DNA from: Betaproteobacteria bacterium
GTDB lineage: Bacteria; Pseudomonadota; Gammaproteobacteria; Burkholderiales; Eutrophovitaceae
DNA length: 64,000 nucleotides
Assembly: GCA_020354125.1 (NCBI GenBank)
Contig: CP070643.1
Span: forward strand, 2,836,372-2,900,371
Reading direction: 5' to 3'
The position numbers and the translations under genes are program-made. Below, piece after piece: positions 3 to 17,245 of the stretch (the first letter of the stretch is position 1; every line of letters begins with the position of its first letter). Below the pieces are notes generated by a model that had not been told where the DNA came from, searched no databases, and saw only the letters and a list, made by a program, of their open reading frames with translations.

Positions 3-41
3 CGTGTGCGCTTCACGCTGTTCGTGAGGCTGCCGCGATGA
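3..41 (+). CDS. 3' end of an upstream gene (partial)
   Basis: The third frame is open from the window edge and ends in a TGA that overlaps the ATG of the next gene (ATGA). Only about 12 codons are visible, ending in FVRLPR. The translationally coupled overlap suggests that this is the preceding gene of the pseudopilin operon, but its product cannot be read. Confidence 0.35.
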   Translation, partial: RVRFTLFVRLPR

Positions 42-532
42 CTCGTCGCGCACAACGCAAAGGGTTGGGCAACGGATTTACGCTCATAGAGCTGGTCATT
101 ACCGTGGCGATCGTCGCCATCCTTGCGCTTGGATTGCTGCCGCTGACCCAGCTTGCCGTGCAGCGCGCCAAGGAAAGTGAACTGCGTGCTGCGTTGCGCG
201 ATATTCGCACGGCGATCGACGAGTACAAAAGGGCTACCAACCGCAAGCGGATTGTGAAGTCTGCCGACGAGTCCGGTTATCCGCCAAACCTCGACGTTTT
301 GGTCGAAGGCGTGCCCGACATGACCTCGCCCGAAGAGCGGATGATCTACTTCATGCGCCGTATCCCGCGCGATCCATTTTTCGAAGACGACACCGTACCG
401 GCGCCAGCAACCTGGGGCCTTCGCAGTTATCAAAGCCCACCTGACAACCCTTACGAAGGTGATGACGTGTTTGATGTGTACTCGCGCTCCGACGGAGTCG
501 GACTGAACGGCGTACCGTACCGCGAATGGTGA
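38..532 (+). CDS. Type II secretion / type IV pilus-like pseudopilin (GspG-like)
   Basis: A 164-residue protein with a prepilin N-terminus: a basic leader, then GFTLIELVITVAIVAILAL at about residues 14-32, where prepilin peptidase should cut after Gly and methylate Phe. The Glu at +5 is present. The hydrophobic helix is followed by an alpha-helical segment (about 36-70) and a small globular C-terminus with the DPF and YEGDDVFDVYS motifs typical of GspG-like proteins. It overlaps the preceding frame by 4 bp and the next pseudopilin by 7 bp, so the genes are translationally coupled. Expected role: a subunit of a periplasmic pseudopilus in the inner membrane. Which system it belongs to is not decided by sequence. 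Confidence 0.85.
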   Translation: MTRRAQRKGLGNGFTLIELVITVAIVAILALGLLPLTQLAVQRAKESELRAALRDIRTAIDEYKRATNRKRIVKSADESGYPPNLDVLVEGVPDMTSPEERMIYFMRRIPRDPFFEDDTVPAPATWGLRSYQSPPDNPYEGDDVFDVYSRSDGVGLNGVPYREW

Positions 533-966
533 AACAGGCATTGCGTGTAGCAGTCGAAAGGGCGGGCTGGTGCCGCATGGCAGCCAACCGGGGCGGCGCC
601 GGGTTCACGCTTGTTGAGTTGCTCGTCGTGCTGGCGATCGTTGCCCTCTTGCTCAGCATTGCCGCGCCACGTTATTTTGCGCACGTCGAGCGCGCAAAGG
701 AAGCAGCATTGAGACAGGACCTCAACGTCGTGCGCGATGCGATCGACAAGTTTTACGGCGACAAGGGGCGTTATCCCGACGCGCTCGAGGAGCTGGTTCG
801 TGAACGCTACCTCCGTGCCATTCCGGTCGACCCGTTTACCGAGAGCGATGCCACTTGGGTGGTGCTGCCGCCGCCGCTGTCGGTGCAGGCCGCAGGCAGC
901 GTCTATGACCTCAGGAGTGGCGCGCCGGGACTCGGCAGTGACGGCCGAGCCTACGCCGACTGGTAG
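526..966 (+). CDS. Second pseudopilin (GspG-like)
   Basis: A 146-residue prepilin-like protein. The cleavage/methylation motif GFTLVELLVVLAIVALLL lies at about residues 26-43, with Glu at +5, followed by an amphipathic helix rich in Lys/Arg and the motifs GRYPDALEEL and IPVDPFT seen in GspG family members. The start at 526 overlaps the first pseudopilin. A later ATG at 577 would give a more usual leader of about 8 residues, so the start is uncertain. Two adjacent GspG-like subunits facing a convergent secretin gene 21 bp away suggest a small dedicated secretion or pilus-like machine. Confidence 0.85.
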   Translation: MVKQALRVAVERAGWCRMAANRGGAGFTLVELLVVLAIVALLLSIAAPRYFAHVERAKEAALRQDLNVVRDAIDKFYGDKGRYPDALEELVRERYLRAIPVDPFTESDATWVVLPPPLSVQAAGSVYDLRSGAPGLGSDGRAYADW

Positions 967-987: not shown

Positions 988-3306
988 CTAAGGCCTCAGC
1001 ACCAGTGCCAGCGGCTCGAGCGGTGCCAGTGACAGTGCCTGCCTGTTCGCGCCCATCGAAACCAGGGTAAGTAATTTAATCTGTGCTTCGGCGCTGGCGT
1101 CCTTGGCGCGGAATGTCACTTTCGCCAGCAGGCCATCGCCGGCAACCCCGCCGGCAACGCCTCGCACATTGCGCAGCAAGACGCGCCCCGACGGGTCTAT
1201 GCGATGCGTGAAGGCGGTGGCAGTGCCGTCCCGGTTCAGGAAGTCGCCCTCGCTGACCTTGACGGCCTCCAGCACGGCCGGGTCAAAACCAAGCTGTGCC
1301 GCCATCGCGTTGACCGGCTCGGCGGCGTTGACCCACAGCCACACATCAAAGGTTTCGCCAACCTTGGCCTGCTCCGGACCCTTGAACAGGGCAGTCACCT
1401 GCCCTTGCCTGGGTGCCGCCATAATCGGGGCGATGAGCGGCTCGCGCATTGATTGCGAGGGCTCTGGCGCCGCCGATTCGGGTTCGATGGCCGGAATCGC
1501 ACCGTTGTTGTTTAGCCCGGACTCCGCGGCGACGGTGCGCAAGGTCAACGGGCGCGTGCGCAGCGTCAATTCCGAGCCCGACCAGAACTCGGCGATTTGC
1601 GCCTGTGGGCGCACGACGTTCGAGATGATCCGCGGCGTGATCGCCAGCAGGATCTCGGTATTCCGGTTCTCGTCCGAGTGCGTGCCGAACAAGCGGCCGA
1701 GGACCGGCAGGTCACCGAGTCCCGGTATCTTGGTCGCGGCCTTGCGTTCTTCATCGCGGATCACGCCACTGAGTATTTGTGTTTCGCCGTCCGCCATGCG
1801 CAAGACGGTCTGTGCATTGCGCGTGCCGGTGCGGTAGGCAACCGAGCCATTGGCTGTCCTGACTTCTTCACCCAGGTTGCTGACCTCGAGTTTGACCGAA
1901 ATGGTGACCATGTTGTCCAGATGAATGACCGGCTGCACCTCCAGTTTCAAGCCGACGTCGAGATACTGGATGCTGTCGGTGACCACCGGATTGCCGGTGC
2001 CCGTGGACACCACGGCACTGATTACCGGCAAGCGGTCAGCCACGACGACGCGCGCCTTCTCGCGATTGTGCACGCGAATACGCGGGCTGAGCAGCGCATT
2101 ACTGTCACCATCGGTCTTGCGCAGCGTTGCAGTGGCACTGGGTCGTGTGACGGTGATGCGGCTGTGGTTGATGCCTTTCAGGTCATCCAGGGTGAAAGGC
2201 GGTCCAGTCGGATCGACCACGCCGAACGTGTACTGGTCGGTCCACTGGATTCCCAGTTCGAGCAGGCGTGACCGATTGACCTCGATGACCTCCATCTCCA
2301 GCATCACTTCCGGTTCCGCCATGTCTTGCGCGATAACGAGTTTTTCTGCTAGCCGTACTGCTTCCGGCGTGTCGCGCATGATGACCAGATTCAGGCTTTC
2401 GTCGATGTATACGTCCTTGGTCTTGAGCACGGTCTTGAGCATCTCGACCGTTTCCTTGACCTTGGCATTGTCCAGGTAAAAGCTTTTTACCATCAGGTCC
2501 TGGTACTCGCGGTTCTTTTGCCGCGGATAGACCAGCACCGAGTTCTCCGACAGCACCTTACTGGACAATTCGTTCTGTATCGCGATCAGTTCGATGGCGT
2601 CCTCGACCCGCACATTGCGCAGCGCCACCGTGATCTTCGTGTCTTTTTTTACATCCTTGTCGAGCAGGAAGTTGATGCCACTGGTGCGTGACAGCGCATC
2701 GAACACCAGTTTGAGGTTGGCGTCGCGGAACTCGAGTGTCACCGGTTTTGCCACTTTGGGCTTGAGCACCGGTGTTGCCCGGATCTCGGCCAGGCGCTGT
2801 TGCTCGATGCGATCACGTAACGCCGCTGCCTTTCCGTTCCCGGGATTTTCCGCCAGCACGGCACGTACAATCGGCTCGGCGGCATCGAGATCGCCCTGCT
2901 TCTCCAGTTCTTCTGCCTCGGCAACTGCTTGCCGGTGACGCCGGTCGCGTTCGACAGAGAGTATGCCCGTGAGCGCGAGTTCATTGCGGCTGTCGATAAC
3001 CAGTGCCTGACGGTACTTCTGCAGCGCTTCGTCCTCACGGCCGGCTGCCTGTGCCTGCTGGCCTTCGCGCAGTAGTCGCTCGGTGATGTCGCTCCGCGCG
3101 GTTAACAGGTCGGCGCGATACTTGCCGTTGCCCGGATCATTGCGCACCGCCTCTTCCAGTTTGGCCAGTCCGGCTTGTTCCTGACCCTGCTCCATGAGCG
3201 TAATACCTTCGCGATGAAGGCGATCGGAGGCGCAACCGGCCACCATCGTTGCCAGCATGAGCAGCACGATAGCGGCAGCACGCGGTTGTAGTAATGACAT
3301 GCTCAA
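988..3306 (-). CDS. Secretin with TPR-like N-terminus and C-terminal cohesin-like domain (GspD-like)
   Basis: A 772-residue outer-membrane secretin. The N-terminus is a lipoprotein-type signal peptide ending LATMVAGC. Residues about 30-165 hold TPR-like helical repeats (EGITLMEQGQEQAGLAKLEEA and following). An STN/secretin N0-like segment follows at about 188-260 (VTLEFRDANLKLVFDALSR), then N-domains and the secretin core at about 395-575 (LLSPRIRVHNREKARVVVADRLP; GLGDLPVLGRLFG). Residues about 634-760 form a cohesin-type beta domain (KVGETFDVWLWVNAAEPVNAM). It should make the gated outer-membrane pore of the secretion module. The start overlaps the stop of the upstream GspC/PilP-like gene by 4 bp. 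Canonical GspD lacks the cohesin-like tail. Confidence 0.88.
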   Translation of the reverse strand: MSMSLLQPRAAAIVLLMLATMVAGCASDRLHREGITLMEQGQEQAGLAKLEEAVRNDPGNGKYRADLLTARSDITERLLREGQQAQAAGREDEALQKYRQALVIDSRNELALTGILSVERDRRHRQAVAEAEELEKQGDLDAAEPIVRAVLAENPGNGKAAALRDRIEQQRLAEIRATPVLKPKVAKPVTLEFRDANLKLVFDALSRTSGINFLLDKDVKKDTKITVALRNVRVEDAIELIAIQNELSSKVLSENSVLVYPRQKNREYQDLMVKSFYLDNAKVKETVEMLKTVLKTKDVYIDESLNLVIMRDTPEAVRLAEKLVIAQDMAEPEVMLEMEVIEVNRSRLLELGIQWTDQYTFGVVDPTGPPFTLDDLKGINHSRITVTRPSATATLRKTDGDSNALLSPRIRVHNREKARVVVADRLPVISAVVSTGTGNPVVTDSIQYLDVGLKLEVQPVIHLDNMVTISVKLEVSNLGEEVRTANGSVAYRTGTRNAQTVLRMADGETQILSGVIRDEERKAATKIPGLGDLPVLGRLFGTHSDENRNTEILLAITPRIISNVVRPQAQIAEFWSGSELTLRTRPLTLRTVAAESGLNNNGAIPAIEPESAAPEPSQSMREPLIAPIMAAPRQGQVTALFKGPEQAKVGETFDVWLWVNAAEPVNAMAAQLGFDPAVLEAVKVSEGDFLNRDGTATAFTHRIDPSGRVLLRNVRGVAGGVAGDGLLAKVTFRAKDASAEAQIKLLTLVSMGANRQALSLAPLEPLALVLRP

Positions 3307-3893
3307 GAGTCTCCCATTGGCAGCGACTGCTCGATATCCAGCGGCAGATAAATCAGCCGCAGACTGGAACCGACAACACGGTCGATGCGATAGGTGCCGT
3401 CGATCACTTCGCCAAGTCTGACGTTATAGAGGTTACCCGCCTTCACCAGGAAGAACATGGGCCGTTGCGGATCATCCGTCATTTTTCCCATATAGGTAAA
3501 TGGCAGCGGCGGTGCGGTTGGCGCTGGCGGTGGCGGCGGTGCTGCTGTCACCGGGGCAGCCGGCGCCGGTGCCCGGGCGGGTCGGGAAGGCGGCGTGTAA
3601 AAAGAACGCGGCGCAAACGGGTCGCGGGCGGCCTGCCGGGATTTTGCGCGCGTCAGCCTGCTCAGATCGATCAGGGCTTCGCCATGCAAGTTTCGTTGGG
3701 CTTCGCCATGCAAGTTTCGTTGCCGTTGCTGTACCGCGTCGTCGCCTGTGCTGGCAACCGGCGCTCGCACACCCTCTACCGCGGCGACCACCGCGGTTGA
3801 GTCCGTGATCTCATTGGGGCCTGCGCTTGCGGCCACCACAAGCAGCAACATCCCGACGAGCAGCAATCGGCGCGCTGGCCGTATTCCTCCCAT
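3303..3893 (-). CDS. GspC/PilP-like periplasmic linker protein
   Basis: A 196-residue protein with an N-terminal hydrophobic segment (RLLLVGMLLLVVAASA, about residues 9-24). A low-complexity linker (about 95-135, mostly Pro and Ala) leads to a compact C-terminal domain (about 138-190: PLPFTYMGKM, FFLVKAGNLYNVRLGEVIDGTYRI, LRLIYLPLD). That domain resembles the homology region of GspC/PilP proteins, which connect the inner-membrane platform to the secretin. Coupling by a 4-bp overlap to the secretin gene supports this. Oddity: an exact 24-bp tandem duplication doubles the peptide QRNLHGEA at about residues 58-73. Family assignment rests on architecture and context. Confidence 0.6.
   Translation of the reverse strand: MGGIRPARRLLLVGMLLLVVAASAGPNEITDSTAVVAAVEGVRAPVASTGDDAVQQRQRNLHGEAQRNLHGEALIDLSRLTRAKSRQAARDPFAPRSFYTPPSRPARAPAPAAPVTAAPPPPPAPTAPPLPFTYMGKMTDDPQRPMFFLVKAGNLYNVRLGEVIDGTYRIDRVVGSSLRLIYLPLDIEQSLPMGDS
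3675..3722. repeat. Exact 24-bp tandem duplication within the GspC/PilP-like gene
   Basis: Two identical head-to-tail 24-bp units (3675-3698 and 3699-3722, beginning GGCTTCGCCATGCAAG on the + strand). The length is a multiple of three, so the frame is kept and the encoded octapeptide QRNLHGEA appears twice. Confidence 0.95.
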
Positions 3894-4196
3894 TGCAATC
3901 TGCCTCGTTCCACTTGACCACTAAATTTGTCCGCCGGTCCGAACGCGCGTGCTGCAATACAAGCGCGCACTCTTCCCGGTTTTTTTTGTTTGTTTGAGCA
4001 AATTCTAGAGAGCGGGCAAATCAAGTCAACGTAGGTCGGGCGCGAAACGCACCTTGAATGATCATGCAAAAAGTGCGATGAATCGCCAGATAACACGGAC
4101 ACTTGTCTGTTTTTTTGAGGTTTATTTTTTCGAAATCAGCATTTGTTGGCTGATATGCGGGCCGTTTGGCGACATCCGAATGCGACAATTGGACGC

Positions 4197-4384
4197 AGTT
4201 GTCATCCCCCTTTTTGATTTGCACAACAGCGGGTCGCGGCACCTGTAAATGCGAGCGATTTGCATCTCTACACGCACGTTTAATAGGCCCAGTTGTAATC
4301 GCCCTTCTTGAATAGCACAGCAGCGGGCGGCGGCACTCGTTAATGCGAGCGATTTGCATTTTTACTCGCGCGTGCAATAGGTCA
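4197..4384. repeat. 94-bp imperfect tandem duplication upstream of the multicopper oxidase gene
   Basis: Two head-to-tail units of exactly 94 bp (4197-4290 and 4291-4384) align without gaps with about 19 mismatches by eye. The only long identical block is AATGCGAGCGATTTGCAT, which contains an ATGC-N9-GCAT dyad. The rest of 3894-4786 is noncoding as far as I can see; it also holds a T-rich stretch near 3980-4000 and a small perfect stem (ATCAGC/GCTGAT) near 4135-4154. Selective conservation of the dyad block suggests a duplicated regulator-binding region for the downstream operon, which is inference. Confidence 0.75.
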
Positions 4385-4786
4385 ACTAGCGACGGACCCG
4401 CTGTGGTGCGTCAGCGTGATCGGTAACTGCGCGTCACGTAGAGACAATATCGTAGCCAACCTGCTAACAGCAGCGATCGGTTGTCATCGCCAACGGGTCA
4501 AATGCCAGCGCTTCAAACGCAAGCGCGGGGCTGCGACAAATTGCCGCGCGACACCGTGCCACATTTTGTAATTGAGACACCGGGGCTATTGTGACATTCG
4601 CGACGCCTGCGTTGAGCGTTTTGTAATACAAATGCTTGCGTCCGTAAAACACAACAAAGGCTTTTCGGCTTGATGCAAGAAAGCCAAATCGGTGGCTGGT
4701 AATGCCGGTACTGCATCCTGGCTGTTGATCCAGGGATATCGGTTCGGCTGACGGCTCTGTGCAGTTGAAAGGAAGGGGGACATGTG

Positions 4787-7700
4787 ATGTCGATTACAAA
4801 AAATTCATCTTTGCCGACGCTCGGCGCGCTACGACTGGTAAGCGCGTGCGCTGTCGGGCTGGTCGCGCTGGTCATGGCGCCAGCCATTGCGCAGGCGCAA
4901 ATTAGCTGCGCAAGGACGTTGACCGCCAATGTCGTGGCGATCGACCAGCCACTCAGTTTCAACCGGCTGGGTGCGTCCAACATTAACGGCATGGTGTTCG
5001 CGCTCGAACAGGATGTCATCAACAAGGGATCGAAAGTGCCGTTGCATTTAGGCGGCGCAAAACAGCCCGGCAACGTCGAGCTGCGTCCCGACAAGCGCCC
5101 GCGTCCGCTGGTGTTGCGCATTGCCGCCGGTGACTGTCTCGATGTCAAGCTGACCAACTTGCTGACGAACAATCCCAATCCATTCAACATTCCGCACCCG
5201 GGTCCGCAGGCAATCAACGTCTTTATCGACCAGCAGGTCCGCGACCGCCACGTCAGTTTCAGCGTGCCCGGCATGCAGCTGCGCGACAATATTGACAGCG
5301 ATGGCACCAACACCGGCACTAACGGTGACGGCGGCCTGGTTGCGACGGGCGGTAACAACTTCAAGATCTACAAGTTGTACGCGCCGAACGAAGGTGTCCA
5401 CGTTATCACCAGCTATGGCGCCACCTTCGGTTCTGACGCCAACCAGGGTAACTCCGCCAACGGACTGTTCGGGCAGATAATTGTCGAGCCGGCCGGTGCG
5501 CGCATGTACCGCAACACGGTCACTGAAGAGGACATGCGGCTGGCCATCGTTGGCACGACACCCAAGGGTCTGCCGAAGATCGATTACGAAGCACGTTATC
5601 CCCTGCAGCAGCCGTGGATTGACGAAGGCAAGGCGGACCGGCCGATCCTCAACATGATCGACACCGCGACCAACGAGATCTGGCATACCGAAGTCGATGC
5701 CGTGGTCGCCGGCCCCAACGCCGACGGCAGCTTCCCGGCGTCGACCTATCCGCTCGAGAGTGTCGGCTTGCGTAACCCCTCGTTGCCGAACCGCCTCGAG
5801 GCATTCCGCGATTTTGCGCAGAACTGGCACGACGAGAACGCGGCGGCGCAGGCGTTTCCCGGCTTTTACAACGATCCCGTGTTCGGCTATGTGCTCGAAG
5901 GCGTCAGGGACTCGTTCATGATCAATTACGGCTCCGGCGGTATCGGAACCGAGATCCTTGCCAACCGGCTTGGCGTCGGCCCGATGCACGACTGCCTGAG
6001 CTGCGCCTACGAGGAGTTCTTCCTGACCTCCTTTACTGTCGGTGACCCGGCCATGTTGGTCGACATTCCGGCCAACGCCGGCCTCGAGGCCTTGGCCCCC
6101 GGGCAGGCACCGCCACCGGGAACGACCGGGCCGAAAGCCAATTTCGCCTTGTATCCGAGCGATCCGGCCAACGTCAATCACAGCTATGTGGGTGACTTCA
6201 CCAAGTTCCGCAACACCCACATTGGCAAGGAACAGCATATTTACCATCTGCACAACCACCAGTGGTTGTACAACCCGAACGACGACAACGCCAACTACCT
6301 CGACGCGCAGTCAATTGGCCCGGGCTCGTCGTATACCTACGAGATCAATTTCGGTGGCTCGGGCAACCGCAACAAGACCTCCGGTGATGCAATCTACCAC
6401 TGCCATTTCTACCCGCACTTCGCGCAGGGTATGTGGCACATGTGGCGCATCCATGACGTGACCGAAACCGGCACATTGCTCGCGGCGAGCGTCAGCGGTG
6501 GCGTGTCGGTTCCCGGCAAGCCCGGTCTGTTCCACAATGATCCGTTCGAGCTGGGTAATGGAACTCCCGCACTTGGCGCGCGCGCGCTGCCGGATGGCGA
6601 GATCGCCGTGGGCGTCCCCATTCCCGCGGTTGTGCCGTTGCCCGGCAAGGGCATGGCGCCGTTGCCGGGGCCAGTGACCGTCAAGGTCAATCCGCTGACG
6701 ACGACTGACGGCATGGGTACGATATTGCCGGTCGGCAGCCTGGCGGATATTAACGTTGCGGCTGCGATTGGTGCGGACGGCATAGCCGGTACCGCCGATG
6801 ACTTGAATCCCGGTTATCCGTTCTGGATTGCCGGTATCGATACCATCGTCGGCCAACGGCCGCCGACCCCGCCGATGGATATGGCGACCGCCGCTGACGT
6901 TGCAGCGGCGAAAGCCGCCAACCCGGCGCTGTTCGCCGACCTGGTGGCAGCGCAAGCCGACGGCCACGATGGTGGTTTGCGCCGTCACTCGCTGTTGGGC
7001 AATTCCTCGGGCGGGCATGCGCTCGTGACGGTGAGTCCGATCGACTTCTCGAAAGTGGTCGAAGAATCCGACGTGCAGTACTTCCCGGAAATCGGCACCG
7101 ATCTCGAGCAGGTCGCGATGTGGTTCCATTCTATTCGCGAGCACCCGAGCGATGCCTTGAAGCTCGATGGCACCACTGCCGACGTCCCATTCGTGGTCAA
7201 TGGCGCCAAGCCGGCGATCGGAGCGGTGTTTAACGAGCCTTGTGTCGATGATGAGGGCGACCGGTTGGGCAATTTTGTGACTGGCGACTTCTTCGGTGCA
7301 CTCGGTCTTGAGACCAAGGGCGCCAGCGCCTTCAACGCGGACAACCCGCGTATCTACAAGGGCGCGAACATGCAGTTCGACGTCATTCTCAACAAGACCG
7401 GCTACCACTACCCGCAGCAGCGCATCATTGCGCTGTGGGAGGACGTGGTGCCGACCATCGACAAGGCAAAGGCGCCGGAGCCGCTGGTGATGCGCCTCAA
7501 TACCTTCGACTGTGCGGTGTACTCGCACGCCAACCTGGTGCCGGAAGTCTACGAGATCGACGATTATCAGGTGCGCACGCCGACCGACATCATCGGCCAG
7601 CACATCCACCTGCCGAAGTGGGACCTGACAACCGCGGATGGTGCCGCCAACGGCTGGAACTACGAAGACGGTACGCTGGCGCCCGGAGCGGTGGTCGAGC

Positions 7701-10700
7701 GTATTCACGCCATTCGCGAGTTCAACCAGTGTATCGGCAAGGACTTTGGCGATCCGCGTGACGGCCAGGATGAGTGTCCAGTGGCGACGGAGCACCCGTA
7801 CTTCGGCCAGTTCGGCCGTGACGACTGGACCGGTGCGCGTACCACGCTGCAGCGCTGGTTTGCCGACCCGGTGGTCAACACTGCCGGTGTCGACCGTGGC
7901 CTGGGCATCATCTTCACCCACGACCACTACGGCCCTTCGACGCACCAGCAGGTCGGTCTGTACGCAACGGTGCTGACCGAGCCGGCTGGCTCGCGCTGGG
8001 TGCATAACGAAACCGGCGTGCAGCTTGGTGCCGGACCGGATGGTACCGGTGGCCGTAGCGACGGCGGCCCGACCTCATGGCAGGCGCAGATTCTGCCGCC
8101 GGATTCGGCCAGCTTTGGCAGCACCGTGCAGGCGGAAACGCTGGAACCGTTCCGCGAGTTCTATGTTGAGTTCAGCGACTTCCAGCATGCCTACGAGCAC
8201 GGCGTCTACGTCGGTGCCGGCCCGGATGGGCGTCCGTTGCCCGGGGCCGGGCAGGGTCTGCCGATGGCCGTGGCCAATCTGGGTAACCCGGAATTCACCG
8301 GCCTGGCAGCCGACGCCTTCCGCTTTTCCATCAACCCGCCGGCACGTCAGCAGTTCAACGCGCCGCTGTTTCCGAACCTGCAGCTAGAAGTCGCAGGTGG
8401 GCAGATTCCGGGTTGTCCGACGCGTCCCTGCCCGCAGGCAATCGACGTGCAGGATCCGGGCACTTTGGTGGCCAACTACCGCGCCGAGCCGGTCGGCCTG
8501 CGCGTGTTTGACCCCAATAAACAAGGGCCCGACGGCAAGCCGGGTACGCAGGCCGACGGCATCGCGGGCGATCTCGCCTTTGCGCTGTCAACCGAGTTGC
8601 GTGATGAGAATGGCGTCGTGACGCCAATCACTCGCGCAATCAATGACCTCAACTCGGTGACCGGCAAGGCACCGGCGGGGTACGTGCTCAATCAGGGTGC
8701 CTTGGCGGGTGACCCGTTCACGCCGATGTTCCGCAGCTATTCCGGGGACTTGGTGCGAGTGAAGATGCAGGCCGGTGCGCACGAGCACGAGCAAAACACC
8801 TCGATCCTCGGGTTGAAGTGGCTGCAAGGTGGCTCCGGTCATGGCACCGGGCCCAATAGCGGTTGGCGCAATGTGCAAGGTAGTGGCATCTCGGAGCAGT
8901 TCACCTTCCGCATGCCGATGAACCCGACGGCACAACAGCTGAACGACGCGGGCCAGACGGACTACGCCTGGACCATCGCGGCCCACATGGACGGCTGGTG
9001 GACCGGCACCTGGGGTCTGGTGCGCAAGTACGAGACCACACAGCCCGACCTCGCGTTGCTGCCTGGCAACGAGGAAGTCGATACCGCGCGGATCGTGAAC
9101 GAGAAAGACTTCAACGGCGTGTGTCCGAAGACTGCGCCGCTGCTGGAGAAGACGGTAATTGCGATCCTGGCCAACGAGCTGTTGCCCAAACCGGCAGGTG
9201 TCACCATCGTGCCGAACGGTCCGAACGGCACCAACGCGCCGCTGAATACGCAGCACGTTGGCGCGCCGCTCGATCCGGACGGCGGTACGCTGGTCTACAA
9301 CCCGCGCGACACCGAGGTCAGTGGTAATGTGCTCGGTCAAGGTCCGCAATCGTTCAATGGCCCGCTGCACGATCCAACGGCGATCCTCTATGTGAGCGCC
9401 GACGATCTCGAGCCCGTGCCTGGTCAGGCTGGCAATGTGTGCCGTGACCGCCCGAATAGGCCCGGCATTGCCAATCCGGAATGCCAGGTGCAACTCAAGG
9501 CCGGTCTCAAGGTCGAGCCGCTGATGCTGCGCGCCAACGCCGGTGACTGTGTCGAGGTGGCGCTGTTCAACCGGCTGCCGGCCCTGGTTCCCGACCTGCC
9601 GACACTGGCCACGCTGCAGGGTGTGGTCAAGCGCGAGCGGTTCGTCATCGATAATGGTGTCGATATCGGTTCGACCTTGTTCGACAACAACCTGATCGTG
9701 CCGTCGAGCCATGTCGGTCTGCAGCCGCAGCTGGTTGAAGTCGATGCGACACAGCACGCCGGTTACAACGTCGGCACCAACGCCGTGTCAACGGTTGGTC
9801 CGGTGCTTCCCAACGGCGACCCGGCCGACGCTATAGTCTACCGTTGGTATATGGGTCATATTGCAGGCAACAAGGTCAATAAGGGTATTGAGCTGGTGGC
9901 GACGCCGGTCGAGTTCGGTGGCTTCGGCCTGATGCCGGCCGACAAGGTCAAGCAGGGCCAGAAGTCGCTGGTTGGCGGCATGGTTGTGCATCCGAAAGAC
10001 GCAGTTGTGGTGGAAGATGCCAACCAGCATGCGCAGGCGACCGTTACCGTCAATGGCACGGCCTACCGTGACTTCATGGTGGTGATGACCAAGGACCTGA
10101 ACCATCGCTACAGGAGCGGCGATGCGGTACAGCACCTGAATGGTCAGCAGGTCGGCATCCCTGAAGACTCCGTGGAGAACTCGGGCATGGCGCTGAACTA
10201 TGGCATCGAGCCGCTCTGGTTCCGCATGGGTCTGCTGCCGAATGCACCGTTCGGTAATGCCGGCTGCGGTCCGAACTGCTACGGTGGTGTCGAGGATGCG
10301 CACACGGCCTACAGCAACACGGTGGTGCGCCGCGGCAACGTGGAGAACCTCGGTGATCCGGTGACACCGGTGCTGATTGCCAACGCTGGTCAGGAAGCCC
10401 GCATCAACTGGGCGATCCCGCACGGCGCCGGCCGCGGCACGCTCTTCAAGCTGCACGGCCATGACTGGCAGCGGGCACCCTATGTCTGCAACGGCAGCAG
10501 CCGCGATAATCTGACTGGAGCGTGTACGATGACCGAGGTCGGCTCGACCAGCATTGGCAAGAGCCCGTATGACCACTACTTCAATGGTCAGGACAGCCTC
10601 ACGCCGATGGGCCACTTCACTTTCCGCATCGAAAAAGCGGGCGGGGAAGGCCAGGTGGTCGGCGACTATCTGTACCGCGATTTCGGCTCGTTCGGTAACG

Positions 10701-10735
10701 CCAGCGGACTGTGGGGCATTCTGCGGGTGCAGTAA
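4787..10735 (+). CDS. Giant multicopper oxidase, candidate Mn(II) oxidase (MofA/MnxG-like)
   Basis: A 1982-residue exported protein. The signal peptide ends MAPAIAQA. Copper-ligand motifs are HIYHLHNHQW (484-493), HCHFYPHFAQGM (538-549; H538, C539, H540, H544, M549, a full type 1 plus type 3 motif), HIH (939-941), THDHYGPSTH (1044-1053), HEH (1332-1334) and HGHDW (1890-1894). Several Asp/Gly-rich loops (near 168-178 and 1255-1270) look calcium-binding. Size and partners (PPIase, cytochrome c) match MofA of Leptothrix and MnxG of Pseudomonas, which oxidise Mn(II) outside the cell. I chose ATG 4787 over GTG 4784; a strong AAGGAAGGGGG lies just upstream. Substrate is inferred; another metal or phenolic donor is possible. 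Confidence 0.85.
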   Translation: MSITKNSSLPTLGALRLVSACAVGLVALVMAPAIAQAQISCARTLTANVVAIDQPLSFNRLGASNINGMVFALEQDVINKGSKVPLHLGGAKQPGNVELRPDKRPRPLVLRIAAGDCLDVKLTNLLTNNPNPFNIPHPGPQAINVFIDQQVRDRHVSFSVPGMQLRDNIDSDGTNTGTNGDGGLVATGGNNFKIYKLYAPNEGVHVITSYGATFGSDANQGNSANGLFGQIIVEPAGARMYRNTVTEEDMRLAIVGTTPKGLPKIDYEARYPLQQPWIDEGKADRPILNMIDTATNEIWHTEVDAVVAGPNADGSFPASTYPLESVGLRNPSLPNRLEAFRDFAQNWHDENAAAQAFPGFYNDPVFGYVLEGVRDSFMINYGSGGIGTEILANRLGVGPMHDCLSCAYEEFFLTSFTVGDPAMLVDIPANAGLEALAPGQAPPPGTTGPKANFALYPSDPANVNHSYVGDFTKFRNTHIGKEQHIYHLHNHQWLYNPNDDNANYLDAQSIGPGSSYTYEINFGGSGNRNKTSGDAIYHCHFYPHFAQGMWHMWRIHDVTETGTLLAASVSGGVSVPGKPGLFHNDPFELGNGTPALGARALPDGEIAVGVPIPAVVPLPGKGMAPLPGPVTVKVNPLTTTDGMGTILPVGSLADINVAAAIGADGIAGTADDLNPGYPFWIAGIDTIVGQRPPTPPMDMATAADVAAAKAANPALFADLVAAQADGHDGGLRRHSLLGNSSGGHALVTVSPIDFSKVVEESDVQYFPEIGTDLEQVAMWFHSIREHPSDALKLDGTTADVPFVVNGAKPAIGAVFNEPCVDDEGDRLGNFVTGDFFGALGLETKGASAFNADNPRIYKGANMQFDVILNKTGYHYPQQRIIALWEDVVPTIDKAKAPEPLVMRLNTFDCAVYSHANLVPEVYEIDDYQVRTPTDIIGQHIHLPKWDLTTADGAANGWNYEDGTLAPGAVVERIHAIREFNQCIGKDFGDPRDGQDECPVATEHPYFGQFGRDDWTGARTTLQRWFADPVVNTAGVDRGLGIIFTHDHYGPSTHQQVGLYATVLTEPAGSRWVHNETGVQLGAGPDGTGGRSDGGPTSWQAQILPPDSASFGSTVQAETLEPFREFYVEFSDFQHAYEHGVYVGAGPDGRPLPGAGQGLPMAVANLGNPEFTGLAADAFRFSINPPARQQFNAPLFPNLQLEVAGGQIPGCPTRPCPQAIDVQDPGTLVANYRAEPVGLRVFDPNKQGPDGKPGTQADGIAGDLAFALSTELRDENGVVTPITRAINDLNSVTGKAPAGYVLNQGALAGDPFTPMFRSYSGDLVRVKMQAGAHEHEQNTSILGLKWLQGGSGHGTGPNSGWRNVQGSGISEQFTFRMPMNPTAQQLNDAGQTDYAWTIAAHMDGWWTGTWGLVRKYETTQPDLALLPGNEEVDTARIVNEKDFNGVCPKTAPLLEKTVIAILANELLPKPAGVTIVPNGPNGTNAPLNTQHVGAPLDPDGGTLVYNPRDTEVSGNVLGQGPQSFNGPLHDPTAILYVSADDLEPVPGQAGNVCRDRPNRPGIANPECQVQLKAGLKVEPLMLRANAGDCVEVALFNRLPALVPDLPTLATLQGVVKRERFVIDNGVDIGSTLFDNNLIVPSSHVGLQPQLVEVDATQHAGYNVGTNAVSTVGPVLPNGDPADAIVYRWYMGHIAGNKVNKGIELVATPVEFGGFGLMPADKVKQGQKSLVGGMVVHPKDAVVVEDANQHAQATVTVNGTAYRDFMVVMTKDLNHRYRSGDAVQHLNGQQVGIPEDSVENSGMALNYGIEPLWFRMGLLPNAPFGNAGCGPNCYGGVEDAHTAYSNTVVRRGNVENLGDPVTPVLIANAGQEARINWAIPHGAGRGTLFKLHGHDWQRAPYVCNGSSRDNLTGACTMTEVGSTSIGKSPYDHYFNGQDSLTPMGHFTFRIEKAGGEGQVVGDYLYRDFGSFGNASGLWGILRVQ

Positions 10736-10790
10736 CAAGCAGGAAGGTCCGTCTAACATGGCGCGGCTATTGCAGCGTCGAACAAAGAGA

Positions 10791-10825
10791 GTGCAGCCGC
10801 AAGGCTGCACTTCTCTTTTCTTTGC
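10791..10825 (+). terminator. Terminator or attenuator hairpin between oxidase and beta-propeller genes
   Basis: A perfect 8-bp stem GTGCAGCC / GGCTGCAC with a GCAA tetraloop (10791-10810) is followed by a T-rich run (TTCTCTTTTCTTT). It has the shape of an intrinsic terminator. It lies 55 bp after the oxidase stop and 125 bp before the next start, so it could lower expression of the accessory genes relative to the oxidase. Confidence 0.6.
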
Positions 10826-10934
10826 TATATTGAACCCAACCAAACCAGATTTCAGCGGTTCGTTTGCCTTGTCAGCCGGCAAGGCCGGCAAAAGTGACGA
10901 CTCGCAACACCCGCCAGGCATGAGGAGACCAACC

Positions 10935-12971
10935 ATGGCGCCCAGAGATTCGTATCTGCGGTCCTTTTTGACCGCCAGCATCCTTGCCCTCGCCGCGATG
11001 GCGGCTGTCTTCCAGCCAGCTTTGGCCAAAACCGACAGTCCCGGTCAGGCGGGCAAGCAATCTGCGCCGGGAGCGGGGCAGGGCACGCAACGCTACGTCA
11101 AGGACGGCGTGACGATCGAGTTTGGCATCCGGCCGCTTCAGCGTGCCGCTGACGAACCGTTAATGGAAGGTGAAACAGTCGAAGTCCGCTTCAAGCTCAG
11201 CGATGAAGCGACCGGCCAGCCGCTGCGCGGCTTTTCACCGGGTGCGTGGATGGACATTGGCCAGGTGCTGCAGGGCCAGCCCGGTGCCGAGCAGAAGAGC
11301 TGCAAGGACAAGATCGCGCTCTATTTGAAGGGTGTGGTTGGTATCCGCCCGATGCTCGACCTGAACAGTTACTACGTGCTGGTGCTCAATCGCGACAGCA
11401 GCATTTCGGTGATCGATCCATTGGTGTCGATGGTGGGCGTCACCAGCACGCTGGCGCGCACGCCGTTGCCGCGACCCGGCGCTGACTGGATAGCCAGCGC
11501 CGACAGCAAGCGTGTGTTCGTGTCCATGCCCAACGCCGACCAGGTGGCGGTGATGGATACCGAAACGTTTGGCATCTCGACTTTCATCGATGCCGGCAAG
11601 GCACCGACACGGTTGGCCTTGCAGCCCGACGGGCGTTATTTGTGGGTGGGCAACGATGCGCGCGATACAGAGGCCAGCGGCGTGACCGTGATCGATACCG
11701 ATACCTTGGAAGTGGTGGGGCAGGTTGCGACCGGCGCCGGCCACCACGAGATCGCATTCACCGATGACAGCCGCTTCGCTTTCGTCACCAATCGCAATGA
11801 CGGCACCGTGACGCGGGTCGACGTGCGCACCTTGCGTGTTGCCGGCACCACCGACACCGGCGGCATTCCCATCTCGGTCGGCTATTCCGGCCTGTCCGGC
11901 TCAGTCTATGTGGCCGAAGCCGAAGGCGGCGAGCTCATCGTACTGGGCGGCAGCGGCTTTGCAGAGACCGCGAGGGTGACAATGAAGCCCGGGCTGGGAC
12001 CACTGCGCTTCACCCCGGACGGGCGTTATGCAATGGTGGTCAACCCCAGCGAAGACAAGGTGTATGTCGTTGATGTTTCCAGTAACTCCGTGGTGCACCA
12101 GATCAACGTTGCCGGGCAGCCTTACCAGCTGACGTTCACCCGCGCGTTCGGCTATGTCCGTTCACTTGCCAGCGAGCGGGTGACCATGATCAATCTTGCG
12201 ACGCTGGGTGCCGGGCGCAAGCCCATTGTGCAGAGTTTTGCTGCCGGCTCGGTGCCGCCGAAAGCGGCCGGCGATATTCCGCTTGCCGATTCGATTGTCA
12301 AGGCGCGTGACGATGCTGCGGTGCTGGTGGTGAACCCGGCTGACAACACCACGTACTTCTACATGGAAGGCATGAATGCGCCGATGAGCAACTATAAGTC
12401 TTTTGGTGCCAGCGCGCGCGCCGTTATGGTGCTCGATCGCAGCCTGCAGGAGATCGAAGCGGGGGTTTACGCTACCCAAGTGCGCATTCCGGCTCCCGGG
12501 CGCTACGATGTTGCCTTTACCATGGACTCGCCGTCGCTGCTGCATTGCTTTTCGGCGAGCGTCGAAGAAAATCCGAACCTGGTTCGCGTGGCCAGTTACA
12601 AGACCCGCTTTCTCCTTGACAGCCGCAAGGTTGATGTCGGTGATCGTGTGGCAGTGCGTTTCTCGATTACTGACGACCGCGCTGGAACCCCGAAGGCAGG
12701 TCTGACCGACGTGCGGGTTCTGTCCTACCTCGTGCCCGGCAAGCAGCGCCTCGAACAACTGGCGCGCGAGGTGGAGCCGGGAATCTACCAGGCACAGGTG
12801 CCGATCGAGTCGTACGGTGCATACTCTGTGCGGGTGGCGGTGCCTTCGCTCGATCAGGATTATCACGATATGAGTTTTGTCACGCTGATTGCCGAAGACC
12901 CGGCACATCGCGCCGAGATCGCGCGCCGCCTGGAAGAGCAGCAGCGTCGGGCAAAGGAGAATGCGCGATGA
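10935..12971 (+). CDS. Secreted YncE/cytochrome-D1-like beta-propeller protein
   Basis: A 678-residue protein with a signal peptide ending VFQPALA. Residues about 130-450 carry repeated propeller blades of the YVTN/YncE type (SISVIDPLV, VAVMDTETFGI, GVTVIDTDTLEVVGQV, GTVTRVDVRTLRV, KVYVVDVSSNSVVHQINV). The C-terminal third has two beta-rich modules resembling FixH or immunoglobulin-like folds (VLDRSLQEIEAGVYATQVRI; VGDRVAVRFSITDD). The start at 10935 follows GAGGAG; upstream in-frame codons run through the oxidase 3' end and lack a signal. The stop overlaps the next gene (ATGA). It is likely a periplasmic or surface partner of the oxidase; exact function is unknown. Confidence 0.8.
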   Translation: MAPRDSYLRSFLTASILALAAMAAVFQPALAKTDSPGQAGKQSAPGAGQGTQRYVKDGVTIEFGIRPLQRAADEPLMEGETVEVRFKLSDEATGQPLRGFSPGAWMDIGQVLQGQPGAEQKSCKDKIALYLKGVVGIRPMLDLNSYYVLVLNRDSSISVIDPLVSMVGVTSTLARTPLPRPGADWIASADSKRVFVSMPNADQVAVMDTETFGISTFIDAGKAPTRLALQPDGRYLWVGNDARDTEASGVTVIDTDTLEVVGQVATGAGHHEIAFTDDSRFAFVTNRNDGTVTRVDVRTLRVAGTTDTGGIPISVGYSGLSGSVYVAEAEGGELIVLGGSGFAETARVTMKPGLGPLRFTPDGRYAMVVNPSEDKVYVVDVSSNSVVHQINVAGQPYQLTFTRAFGYVRSLASERVTMINLATLGAGRKPIVQSFAAGSVPPKAAGDIPLADSIVKARDDAAVLVVNPADNTTYFYMEGMNAPMSNYKSFGASARAVMVLDRSLQEIEAGVYATQVRIPAPGRYDVAFTMDSPSLLHCFSASVEENPNLVRVASYKTRFLLDSRKVDVGDRVAVRFSITDDRAGTPKAGLTDVRVLSYLVPGKQRLEQLAREVEPGIYQAQVPIESYGAYSVRVAVPSLDQDYHDMSFVTLIAEDPAHRAEIARRLEEQQRRAKENAR

Positions 12972-13705
12972 GACGCTGCGTGATGGGCTTCGTATTGTTC
13001 GCCGGCACAGCACTGGCAGGTTTTGCTGTCCTCGCTGCAGAAAACGGCCACCGGCATCATGGTGGCCATGAGCAACACGCCGGGCACCAGCAAAATGACG
13101 CTGATGAACATGCGGCTCATCAGAAGACCGGCGGCGACGACCCGCACGCCAAGCACCGGGCGCAGGCTGCAACAGCAGCTGCCGCACCCAGCTCGGCAAG
13201 GGTGACCCTGCATGACCGAGCCTTGGTCGACCGTCATGGCCAGCGGGTCAGGTTGGTAAGCGACGTTCTGAGCGACAGGGTCGCGGTCATCAACTTTGTC
13301 TATACCACCTGCACCACCGTGTGCCCGGTCACTTCCGCGACCTTTGCGCAACTGCAGTCCGAGCTCGGCGAGCGGCTCGGCAAGGAGGTGGTGCTGGTGT
13401 CGATTAGCGTTGATCCGGTGCGCGACACGCCGCCGCGACTCAAGCAGTATTCGGCGATGCATGGTGCCGGTGATCACTGGCTGTGGCTGACCGGCGCCAA
13501 GCCCGATGTCGATCAGGTGCTGCGCGGCATGGGTGCCTACACGCCGAACTTCCAGGACCACCCGGCAATGGTGCTGGTGGGGGATGCCTCGCGCAACGAG
13601 TGGTCGCGTTACTTTGGTTTCCCTTCGGCGCAACAGTTACTGGCGAGCATCAATGCCATCGGCGGATCTATGCACGACAAGGCGGTTGTCAAAAGCAAGG
13701 AGTAG
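12968..13705 (+). CDS. SCO1/SenC/PrrC copper chaperone, His-rich N-terminus
   Basis: A 245-residue thioredoxin-fold protein of the SCO family. A signal or anchor segment (about 5-22) is followed by a striking His-rich stretch (about 28-63, with GHRHHGGHEQHAGH), a likely copper buffer. The SCO core has the CxxxC site YTTCTTVC (C115, C119) and a downstream conserved His in FQDHPAMV. Family members deliver copper to CuA of cytochrome oxidase or act as thiol redox proteins. In this operon copper loading of the giant oxidase is the likely job (inference). It is coupled to the propeller gene by a 4-bp overlap. Confidence 0.88.
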   Translation: MRRCVMGFVLFAGTALAGFAVLAAENGHRHHGGHEQHAGHQQNDADEHAAHQKTGGDDPHAKHRAQAATAAAAPSSARVTLHDRALVDRHGQRVRLVSDVLSDRVAVINFVYTTCTTVCPVTSATFAQLQSELGERLGKEVVLVSISVDPVRDTPPRLKQYSAMHGAGDHWLWLTGAKPDVDQVLRGMGAYTPNFQDHPAMVLVGDASRNEWSRYFGFPSAQQLLASINAIGGSMHDKAVVKSKE

Positions 13706-13708
13706 AAC

Positions 13709-14356
13709 ATGAATGTTTTTCGTCAATGCGTTATCGGCCTGGCACTTTTGTTCAGTGCGGGCTGGTGTCACGCGCAGGGGGTTACGCCGCAGCTGATCGC
13801 AGAACGCGATGCAACAGCACGTGAATACTTTACCGATACGGTGCTGATGACCCACACCGGCAAATCGGTGCGGTTCTACAGCGACACCATGAAAGGCAAG
13901 GTGGTGCTGATCAATTTCATCTATACCAGTTGCGGCGACGCTTGTCCGATGATTACCGCCAAACTGATGCAGGCACAAAAGGAAGTCGGCGAGCTGTTCG
14001 GCACGGAAGTGCGTTTTATCTCGATCAGTATCGACCCGCTCAACGATACGCCGGCGGCGCTTAGCGCATTTGCCAAGAAGATGGATGTGTCGCACCCGGA
14101 GTGGCTGTTTCTGACCGGAGAGCAGCGCAACGTCGACTACGTTGTCGCCAAACTCGGTGCCTACACCGAAGAGGTGCCCAATCACTTTATCGGCATGATC
14201 ATGGGCAGCGCGCAACAGGCGCGCTGGAAAAAAGTCCGTCCTGACGCGCCGCCCCAGGCCATTGCGCAGGAACTGCGGAGCCTGGCAGAGGCGGAGGCCG
14301 AACTGCGCAGTGCGCTGGCGTCACAGGACGGGAAGGTCTCGCAGCTTCAGCAGTAG
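13709..14356 (+). CDS. Second SCO1/SenC family protein
   Basis: A 215-residue exported SCO protein with a signal peptide ending GWCHA. The redox/copper site is IYTSCGDAC (C75, C79) and the conserved His is in VPNHFIGM. SISIDPLNDTP is the usual SCO core motif. The C-terminus ends in a charged helix (about 180-215). An AAGGAG ribosome site precedes the ATG, 3 bp after the first SCO stop. Two different SCO proteins in tandem suggest separate copper donor and disulfide-reducing roles, which is inference. Confidence 0.88.
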   Translation: MNVFRQCVIGLALLFSAGWCHAQGVTPQLIAERDATAREYFTDTVLMTHTGKSVRFYSDTMKGKVVLINFIYTSCGDACPMITAKLMQAQKEVGELFGTEVRFISISIDPLNDTPAALSAFAKKMDVSHPEWLFLTGEQRNVDYVVAKLGAYTEEVPNHFIGMIMGSAQQARWKKVRPDAPPQAIAQELRSLAEAEAELRSALASQDGKVSQLQQ

Positions 14357-14428
14357 CGTGTGCCCCGTTTAGGCGCTACCAGATACTGCGCAGCTGCTAT
14401 TGGTGGGCGTGCGCAGACTGCCGCCGAT

Positions 14429-16093
14429 ATGCTTTCAGCCTGGGGGGCTGAGCGCGGCCCTGTGTGCCGTCTGATTGTACTGGTTGTTTCTTCGATAAAG
14501 CGGTTCGCTGGCGTCGGGGCATTTTCCGGTCAACGCTTAGTGCCTATCGGCGTGGCGCTGATATTGCCTCTGGTGTTTGCCTGGTCCGGTGCTGTCGCGG
14601 CCGGCAATGCGTTGAGCGCTCTGGAACAGGCCGGCCGCCGGATTTATCTCGATGGCGTGACCGGTTCGGGCGAACCGCTGCGGGCGCTGGTTGGTGCCGG
14701 ACAGATGCCGCTGCGTGGCGCAGTGGTCGCTTGCGGCAACTGCCACGGGCCGGATGGCAAGGGCCGACCGGAATCCTCCGTGATTCCCCCCGAGATTACC
14801 TGGGAAGCGTTGACCAAGCCCTATGGCCACATTCACGCCACGCGCAAACACGGCCCGTTCGATGTTTCGGCGTTTGCATTCGCTGTCAACGAGGGCATTG
14901 ACCCGGCGGGTAACGTGCTGGATTTCACCATGCCGCGTTTCGCGTTGTCGCGCAGCGATGTCGAGGCATTGGTGGCCTACCTCAAGCGCCTGTCGAGCGT
15001 GCGCGATCCCGGTATCGTGGAGCAAGGCCTGCGGATCGGCACCGTGTTGCCGGATAGCGGCCCGGCTGCGGCGGCCGGTCGAGCGGTTGAGCAGGTGCTG
15101 AACGCCTATTTCGAGTACGTTAACCGGAATGGTGGCGTGCACCAGCGCCGACTCGAACTCGTTATCGCGGTCAGCCCGGACGATGCCCGCAAGCGGTTTG
15201 ATGACAAGCCGGTATTTGCGTTGGTCAGTCCGTTCGGCGGCGCTCCCGATGACGCGGTCAGCAAACTCCTCACGGACTCAGGCCTGCCGACCGTTGGTCC
15301 GCTCACGCCGGTGCCGGACGCCACCGGCGGGCCGCTGGCATTGGCGTTTTACCTGCAGCCCGGCCTGGGCGAGCAGCTTGCCGCGCTGGTCGACTTCGCC
15401 GCAAGCCGCGTGGCCGGCGAGCGGCTTGATGCGGCGGTCCTGTCGCTCGGCGCACAGCCGTACCAGGAAGCGGCGTGGACTGCGGTGAACCGATGTGAAA
15501 AGCACGGCTGTGCCCGGGCCGAGCAAATGACCTGGATGCAGGGGTCGTTTGACGCCGCCGCGCTGGTCAAACAGCTTGGCAGCGCCGGGGTCGAGCACAT
15601 TTTTTTCGCCGGTCCGGGGACTGATCTTGCCGCGCTGGTGGCAGCCCTCGACAAACTACCGGACAATGCGGAGGCAATCAGCCTTTATGTGCCGGGCGCA
15701 ATCGCGCGGGCTGCCATTGCCGGTCGGCAAGCGATGCCGGGAGAGCTTTTTGTCGCTTATCCTGCGCAGCCTGCTGCCGGTCCGGCTGCGTCGCCTGAAC
15801 TGTGGGAAGCGCTTGAGCGAAGCGGCACACTGAGTCGCCAGCATCGGGCAGTACAGCTTGCGGCGCTGCAAGCGGCGGCGGTGCTGGTGGAGGCGCTGCG
15901 TCGCTCTGGCCGCGATTTGAGCCGCGAGGCACTGGTGCGTGCACTGGAGGGTCTGGGTCGATTCGAGACCGGTTTCGGGCCACCGGTGAGCTTCGGCCCC
16001 GGCCAGCGCATCGGCGCGCGCGGCAGTTACGTAGTGGCAATTGACCGGGATGGGCGTTTTTCTCTGGCTTCCGACTGGATCCAGCTCAACTGA
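14429..16093 (+). CDS. Cytochrome c fused to a type 1 periplasmic-binding-protein domain
   Basis: About 554 residues from the ATG at 14429. The frame is open from GTG 14360, and GTG 14540 would place a clean signal peptide first (LILPLVFAWSGAVAAG), so the start is uncertain. A class I cytochrome c domain follows, with the heme site CGNCH (C102, C105, H106) and a likely axial Met in FTMPRF (M168). From about residue 190 to the end lies a LivJ/Peripla_BP_6-like fold (GTVLPDSGPAAAAGRAVEQVLNAY; VEALRRSGRDLSREALVRAL). MofC of Leptothrix is also a cytochrome c encoded beside the oxidase. Expected role: periplasmic electron acceptor. The binding-fold ligand is unknown. Confidence 0.8.
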   Translation: MLSAWGAERGPVCRLIVLVVSSIKRFAGVGAFSGQRLVPIGVALILPLVFAWSGAVAAGNALSALEQAGRRIYLDGVTGSGEPLRALVGAGQMPLRGAVVACGNCHGPDGKGRPESSVIPPEITWEALTKPYGHIHATRKHGPFDVSAFAFAVNEGIDPAGNVLDFTMPRFALSRSDVEALVAYLKRLSSVRDPGIVEQGLRIGTVLPDSGPAAAAGRAVEQVLNAYFEYVNRNGGVHQRRLELVIAVSPDDARKRFDDKPVFALVSPFGGAPDDAVSKLLTDSGLPTVGPLTPVPDATGGPLALAFYLQPGLGEQLAALVDFAASRVAGERLDAAVLSLGAQPYQEAAWTAVNRCEKHGCARAEQMTWMQGSFDAAALVKQLGSAGVEHIFFAGPGTDLAALVAALDKLPDNAEAISLYVPGAIARAAIAGRQAMPGELFVAYPAQPAAGPAASPELWEALERSGTLSRQHRAVQLAALQAAAVLVEALRRSGRDLSREALVRALEGLGRFETGFGPPVSFGPGQRIGARGSYVVAIDRDGRFSLASDWIQLN

Positions 16094-16123
16094 TTACAGG
16101 CACGCCGCCGGATTAACCCACGC

Positions 16124-17101
16124 ATGATCGAAATGAGAAAAAACAAGATCCTCCATGGTCTGTCATGTTTGCTGCTGTTGTGGAGCGCCACCGCTTACGG
16201 CCAGGCGGCTGGCGTGGTGGCCCGGGTCAACGGTGGCGACATCGAGGTGCGTGCCTTCGAGCGGCGGGTGCACGAGTACCTGCAAGCGCAACATACCAAT
16301 GTTGGCGCGATCCGCAACCCTGAAAAGTACAGGCGGATCCAGCGCGAGGTGCTCGACCAGATGATCGGCGAGGAACTGCTGTGGCAGGAGGCGTCGCGGC
16401 GCAACATCGTCGCCACCGATGCCGATGTGGAAGCCGCCGTGGCCGATATCGCAGGCCGCTTCGGTTCGGTCGAGAAATTCCGAATGCGTCTGGCGATCGA
16501 CGGATGGACCGAGGCGGAGTATGCCGGGCGGATCCGGCGCGAAGTGTCGACGCGGATGTTCGTCGAGCAGACGCTGCTCGCCGGGGTCAGTGTTTCCGAC
16601 ACCGAGATTCACGAGTTCTATATTGACAACCCTGAGCAGATGCGCCGTCCGGAGCAAGTCGCCGTTCGCCATATCCTCATCAAGCTGGCACCGGGTAGCG
16701 ATGCGGCGGTGGTCGAGGCTGCCAGAGGCCGGATCGAGGCGCTGCGGATCGAGGCTGCTGGCGGTGCCGATTTTGCCCAACTGGCCCGCGTCCACTCCGA
16801 GGACAGCAGCGCGAGCAATGGCGGCGACCTGGGCTTCATCAGCCGCGGGCAGATGGTTCGCCCGTTCGAGGAGGCGGCCTTTGCGCTGTCGCCGGCGGAG
16901 GTGTCCGGGGTGGTCAGGACCATCTACGGATTGCACATCATCAAGGCCGAGGCGCGGCGCGGCGGTGAACTGATACCGGAGGCGGAACTGCGCGAACCGA
17001 TCCATGACTACCTGTATTCAGGCAAGCGTCAGCAGGCGATTCGCGACGAGATTGCACGCCTGCGCAATAGCGCCGAGATCGAGGTTTTCTGGGCACTCTG
17101 A
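16124..17101 (+). CDS. Periplasmic PpiC/parvulin-type peptidyl-prolyl isomerase
   Basis: A 325-residue protein with a signal peptide ending SATAYG. A SurA-like N-terminal chaperone region covers about 30-170. The parvulin domain lies at about 175-275: VRHILIKL, FAQLARVHSEDSSASNGGDLGFISRGQMVRPFEEAAF and IYGLHIIK, all family signatures. It should help fold exported proteins, plausibly the near-2000-residue oxidase. MofB of Leptothrix is a PPIase too, though described as FKBP-type, so the fold class differs. A second ATG at 16133 is an alternative start. It is the last gene of the operon, convergent with the glycan operon. Confidence 0.9.
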   Translation: MIEMRKNKILHGLSCLLLLWSATAYGQAAGVVARVNGGDIEVRAFERRVHEYLQAQHTNVGAIRNPEKYRRIQREVLDQMIGEELLWQEASRRNIVATDADVEAAVADIAGRFGSVEKFRMRLAIDGWTEAEYAGRIRREVSTRMFVEQTLLAGVSVSDTEIHEFYIDNPEQMRRPEQVAVRHILIKLAPGSDAAVVEAARGRIEALRIEAAGGADFAQLARVHSEDSSASNGGDLGFISRGQMVRPFEEAAFALSPAEVSGVVRTIYGLHIIKAEARRGGELIPEAELREPIHDYLYSGKRQQAIRDEIARLRNSAEIEVFWAL

Positions 17102-17145
17102 GACCCGTTGGTGCCTGCCGCCGCTCAACGCGCCAGCCGTTGAAA

Positions 17146-17243: not shown

Positions 17244-17245
17244 GA

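Follow-up and report, generated by a model that had tools for sequence, protein, structure and literature searches.

A betaproteobacterial mnxG-type operon flanked by genes of a Gsp-like secretion module

The window, the whole 64,000-nucleotide stretch of DNA that was analysed, carried six genes for a giant multicopper oxidase (MCO) and five partner proteins on the forward strand between positions 4787 and 17101. Judged from its sequence, the locus belongs to the betaproteobacterial branch of the mnxG operon family. Operons of this kind are already known; in the present lineage, few relatives carry one. The best overall explanation, which we hold with high confidence, is a beta-branch mnxG operon encoding a secreted giant MCO together with its five partners. 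An earlier sequence-only reading had listed the same six genes; all were present, and their domains were confirmed with Pfam and NCBIfam:

4787..10735, + strand: mnxG-type giant multicopper oxidase, 1982 aa, with a Sec-type signal peptide (NF041487, copper ligands, tree)
10935..12971, + strand: YVTN beta-propeller with N- and C-terminal beta-sandwich domains (Pfam/NCBIfam, conservation, AlphaFold, Foldseek)
12968..13705, + strand: SCO1/SenC protein with a His-rich N-terminus, CxxxC and a conserved His (PF02630, E=1.2e-19)
13709..14356, + strand: second SCO1/SenC protein with CxxxC and a conserved His (PF02630, E=6.8e-21)
14360..16093, + strand: cytochrome c (CGNCH)–Peripla_BP_6 fusion of MofC-like make-up (Pfam)
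16124..17101, + strand: SurA_N plus parvulin peptidyl-prolyl isomerase (PPIase) of MofB-like role (PF13616, E=2.6e-23; PF13624)

The partner domains were a YncE/YVTN propeller, SCO1-SenC in two proteins, Cytochrom_C with Peripla_BP_6, and SurA_N with Rotamase. Since the family matches were full-length and high-scoring, this gene content is far beyond chance. The operon corresponded gene for gene, order included, to the mnxG operon of Pseudomonas putida GB-1, which consists of mnxG, a YVTN propeller, two successive SCO1/SenC genes, an ABC substrate-binding plus cytochrome c gene and a gene for a SurA-domain protein (PMC11409713, Table 4). Strains GB-1, MS-1 and DSV-1 all carry the identical six-gene operon (PMC11409713), and Pseudomonas sp. 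OF001 has an operon of the same type (PMC8218464). A GTDB scan retrieved 431 loci encoding relatives of the oxidase, of which the best 80 were kept; 86 loci were analysed for gene order. The exact six-gene order, for which the sequence-only reading had proposed a search in other genomes, was the commonest arrangement among these GTDB loci (62 of 86), the others having a shuffled SCO/PPIase order, duplications or contig ends. That reading had also described the locus as an 'expanded' mof operon to which the propeller and the SCO pair were additions. Given the identical published set and its order in the scanned loci, both are standard parts of mnxG operons, and the description as an expansion was dropped.

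The NCBI MnxG model NF041487 matched the window oxidase over positions 1–1893 of 1894 (2406 bits, E=0), below the NCBI equivalog naming cut-off for MnxG (3100). Among relatives, the model scored 3890 for Pseudomonas, 3180 for Aromatoleum and 2409 for BroJett031; the nearest named relative of the window oxidase (L042) was likewise under the cut-off (2409 bits vs 3100). The cut-off was thus passed by the Pseudomonas and Aromatoleum proteins tested and missed by the beta-branch ones, and the locus is therefore not called a strict MnxG equivalog but a beta-branch mnxG-type operon. Pfam MCO domains were barely detectable in the oxidase, which fits a divergent giant family. The solved MnxG of Bacillus (PDB 9bxa) was a distant homologue (E=4.5e-61), aligning in several cupredoxin stretches with low identity. 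Small laccases matched weakly and covered one domain. The Bacillus MnxG has 1227 aa and its operon differs. The copper ligands of the window oxidase were H485/H488/H490, H539-C540-H541/H545/M550, H940/H942 and H1046/H1048 (P0001 numbering), and all 12 checked positions, representing one T1 and one trinuclear centre (T1/T2/T3), were invariant among 90 homologues. The mnx-like identity proposed earlier is borne out by these invariant ligands and the end-to-end model match. The genome containing the window also encoded two ordinary MCOs elsewhere.

The window oxidase was approximately 51–54% identical to Pseudomonas homologues; with its nearest relative, identity reached 64%. In a 36-row tree, it joined Caldimonas tepidiphila and the Betaproteobacteria metagenome-assembled genome (MAG) BroJett031 (SH-aLRT 98), a group adjoining Ramlibacter, Ideonella and another Burkholderiales MAG (SH-aLRT 99). 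This betaproteobacterial branch was sister to the Pseudomonas/Aromatoleum MnxG clade, although the deep branches need caution because of the quick search and long outgroup rows. The nearest families were MnxG proteins, and the grouping with non-Mn MCO clades that the earlier reading had considered was not seen. The operons of C. tepidiphila, BroJett031, Ramlibacter monticola and Ideonella, from the same or the neighbouring clade, had the same gene set as the window.

By orthology, Mn(II) would be the substrate of the oxidase. In P. putida GB-1, the Mn oxidases are encoded by mnxG and mcoA, MnxG being the dominant one, and a double knockout formed no Mn oxide (PMC11930936). The substrate may have shifted in the beta branch, given the presence of the operon in only 1 of 17 genomes of the family. 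An MnxG-family oxidase with Fe(II), Cu(I) or a phenolic for its main substrate, in the manner of other MCOs, would agree with the score below the naming cut-off, with the divergent members of the wider family that have the same propeller, SCO and cytochrome partners (L036, L037, L155–L157), and with the inclusion in that wider family of OmpB, a protein required to reduce Fe(III) oxide (PMC5566968). We consider it quite unlikely, as the oxidase belongs to a supported branch that is sister to Pseudomonas MnxG, its nearest relative is as close as noted above, and the six-gene set is complete and linked to Gsp-like genes. Another reading takes the locus for a mof-type operon, as in Leptothrix mofABC, that gained propeller and SCO genes. 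Like the window operon, mofABC combines a large MCO with a PPIase and a cytochrome c/binding-domain gene, and MofC-like proteins consist of a cytochrome c and a periplasmic binding domain (PMC5566968); unlike it, mof has by its description neither a propeller nor paired SCO genes. The common PPIase and cytochrome c/binding-protein genes (PMC5566968, PMC8218464), pointed out in the sequence-only reading, do adjoin the window oxidase, but they are not diagnostic of mof because the mnxG operon has both too. As the gene set and order matched mnxG and not mof (known by description), and the best family model of the oxidase was MnxG, the expanded-mof reading was rejected as highly improbable in favour of the beta-branch mnxG operon.

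The partner proteins retained their characteristic residues. The propeller gene starts with the ATG at 10935, followed by a signal peptide, giving a gap of 199 nt after the oxidase gene; the overlap of the listed propeller ORF with the oxidase is due solely to a mechanical TTG start at 10554. The propeller had conserved YxEGMxAP and HC motifs, and we speculate from the sequence that the EGM and HC motifs could bind metal. An AlphaFold model (pLDDT 88.6, pTM 0.76) placed a YVTN propeller between beta-sandwich domains. Foldseek matched this model to generic seven-bladed YVTN propellers, to AztD, a zinc metallochaperone, and to NosZ, the nitrous oxide reductase; since such matches are generic, no function is claimed from the fold. 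Residues conserved in at least 90% of homologues were C115, C119 and H198 in the first SCO protein, C75, C79 and H159 in the second, and C125, C128, H129 and M191 in the cytochrome fusion. The binding domain of the fusion was of the branched-chain-amino-acid type of periplasmic proteins, and the true start of its gene may lie downstream of the GTG.

The secretin/pseudopilin module that had been placed 0.9 kb from the operon proved real and lay upstream, with 893 nt between 3893 and 4787. A further candidate component was located downstream of the operon:

38..532, + strand: pseudopilin 1 of the Gsp-like module (N_methyl; homologues of 52–61% identity adjoin mnxG in six further genomes)
526..966, + strand: pseudopilin 2 of the Gsp-like module (N_methyl; homologues of 52–64% identity adjoin mnxG in six further genomes)
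988..3306, - strand: GspD-like secretin with TPR and cohesin domains (PF00263, PF00963; linked homologues)
3303..3893, - strand: 196-aa protein beside gspD in all linked loci examined (conserved position)
27550..28209, + strand: pseudopilin-like protein, XcmX candidate (tblastn, 48% identity over 153 aa, E=2.7e-44)

The 196-aa protein had no match in Pfam or NCBIfam. The set is larger than the window shows: upstream of the window lay genes for GspG and GspF, for a GspE/PilB ATPase and for additional small membrane proteins. A major pseudopilin, ATPase, inner-membrane platform protein and secretin were thus all present in this type II secretion system (T2SS)-like locus. GspG exceeded its model cut-off (191 vs 88.85), while the matches of GspF, GspE/PilB and GspD were under theirs (143.6 bits for the secretin with TIGR02517). 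Counting the window genome, seven genomes had the T2SS-like set (gspG, gspF, gspE, gspD, pseudopilins and xcmX) on the flanks of the mnxG operon, and its layout took four forms. Pseudomonas and Aromatoleum had a divergent gspG-F upstream, with gspE to the pseudopilins downstream; in Caldimonas, the downstream half was inverted; in BroJett031, the whole set was downstream and inverted. The window genome differed from Pseudomonas in having the module wholly upstream of the operon, with the xcmX-like gene apart at 27.6 kb. Among loci with at least 8.5 kb of downstream sequence, 64 of 70 had gspE, nearly always downstream of the PPIase gene; most of these loci are from Pseudomonas, so the independent evidence for linkage is the different layouts and not this count. 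No secretion module was found near the divergent oxidases L036 and L037.

The XcmX candidate is related to a 207-aa ORF of P. putida. In strain 700447 of that species, the pseudopilins precede this ORF, and CsgE, CsgF and CsgG come after it, the whole region lying beside mnxG. For strain GB-1, de Vrind et al. reportedly described xcmT1-xcmS and xcmT2-T3-X-csmEFG in 2003, and we provisionally take the gspG-gspF pair and the pseudopilin/207-aa ORF/CsgEFG region of P. putida to match that xcm region. The window locus resembles the Xcm pathway of GB-1 in its gspG-gspF pair; the succession of pseudopilins and 207-aa ORF was that of the P. putida locus. It differs in that neither the window nor the 20 kb upstream of it yielded a homologue of csgE, csgF or csgG, which reportedly accompany xcmX and are present in Pseudomonas loci.

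The sequence-only reading had suggested that the neighbouring module could export the oxidase. This idea gains support from the linkage in seven genomes, and a protein-export machine beside the operon probably carries the oxidase to the cell surface. We favour, with some reserve, the broader proposal that a Gsp-like exporter is dedicated to MnxG-type oxidases and co-inherited with them, the operon lying inside an Xcm-type locus across Pseudomonas and Betaproteobacteria and being kept there through repeated rearrangement. The 'Mn-oxidising factor' of GB-1 from 2003 would then be MnxG, encoded beside its own exporter. Alternatively, the secretion genes could be linked to mnxG by chance or a shared island history, with another secretin exporting MnxG. 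The window genome has five secretins, and most linked loci are from Pseudomonas and hence not independent, as this alternative would allow; it appears unlikely, because Pseudomonas, Aromatoleum, Caldimonas, BroJett031 and the window genome retain the linkage in at least four rearranged layouts, and because a novel Gsp-related pathway was, by the title of de Vrind 2003 (cited in PMC3056050), required for secretion of the Mn-oxidising factor in P. putida GB-1. Among the open-access papers searched, which include few of the subscription papers, none contained both 'mnxG' and 'type II secretion'. The conserved T2SS-like linkage names genes bearing on the passage of a 200-kDa copper enzyme to the cell surface and may connect the secretion genetics result of 2003 with the oxidase identified later.

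We propose the following route. MnxG would be synthesised with a signal peptide; the SurA-type PPIase would assist its folding, and the two SCO proteins would supply its copper. Transport to the outer surface would be the task of the flanking Gsp-like (T2SS-like, Xcm-like) machine, and there MnxG would oxidise Mn(II) to Mn(III/IV) and reduce O2 at one T1 copper and the trinuclear centre. Accessory roles would fall to the propeller and the cytochrome c/binding-protein fusion, electron transfer or metal handling being guesses.

Three non-coding elements were located in the mnxG leader and in the gap between mnxG and the propeller gene:

4196..4381, + strand: two 92-nt direct repeats, 82% identical, containing ATGCGAGCGATTTGCAT, in the mnxG leader (nowhere else in the genome)
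10759..10774, + strand: putative sigma-54 site, a full match to the pattern, in the mnxG–propeller gap (pattern search)
10789..10812, + strand: 10-bp hairpin with a T-rich tail in the mnxG–propeller gap, terminator- or attenuator-like (fold z -4.5 for the gap)

In GB-1, mnxG has an upstream sigma-54 promoter (PMC11930936), and Mn oxidation in strain MS-1 needs rpoN (PMC11409713). A strong sigma-54 site upstream of mnxG, scoring at least 26.5, was present in 71 of 82 loci. Unlike the Pseudomonas operons, with which it shares all six genes and, in related Pseudomonas, Gsp-like neighbours, the window had no sigma-54 promoter upstream of mnxG, the best site scoring 21.5 of 29, at shuffle level. 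The site was also unclear or absent in other beta-branch loci examined. The betaproteobacterial operons named above resembled the window in having no clear sigma-54 site and, in several cases, a hairpin after mnxG; their Gsp-like module layout and SCO gene arrangement varied. The hairpin of the window sits just after the sigma-54 pattern match, and one recurs after mnxG in 15 of 82 loci; this would fit production of more oxidase than accessory protein. The 92-nt repeats are possible regulator sites; a dispersed element was rejected, as they are unique in the genome. An Rfam search of positions 3880–17300 gave no match.

Any match occurred in 9 of 369 genomes of a class-level sample; with the single occurrence in the family, gain by transfer or repeated loss is likely. 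A plasmid search for mobility yielded only distant relatives (identity at most 38%). One of these, on a 1.18 Mb megaplasmid of Indioceanicola profundi (L158), was a 38% identical MnxG relative with a propeller, two SCO genes and gspG/F/E homologues nearby. Tandem mnxG copies were observed in Pseudomonas schmalbachii (three, L101) and in a Gammaproteobacteria MAG (L041) and G668 (G668:C1:5197485-5210312; two each). The divergent giant MCOs L036, L037, L155, L156 and L157 (approximately 28–34% identical) keep propeller and SCO neighbours, and most also retain the cytochrome/periplasmic binding protein neighbour. Judging by these loci, the partner gene set looks older than the MnxG clade.

Autotrophy was considered as a context; a RuBisCO-family match exists, but by eye the protein looks like a RuBisCO-like form, so no lithotrophy is claimed. 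Elsewhere in the window, the minus strand at 17246–25807 encoded an alginate-export-type porin, a phosphotransferase, an ABC exporter and glycosyltransferases; the product of this cluster is probably an exopolysaccharide or a glycolipid. An ActR/PrrA/RegA-like redox response regulator (26316–26975; 152 bits, cut-off 250) lay beside the XcmX-like gene, and a C-terminal fragment related to PQQ-dependent alcohol dehydrogenases at 28309–28908 is possibly a gene remnant. Positions 29444–33293 encoded an alpha-hydroxyketone (CqsA/LqsA-type) quorum-sensing autoinducer synthase (603 bits, cut-off 428) beside a convergent histidine kinase and response regulator, likely a complete signalling cassette.
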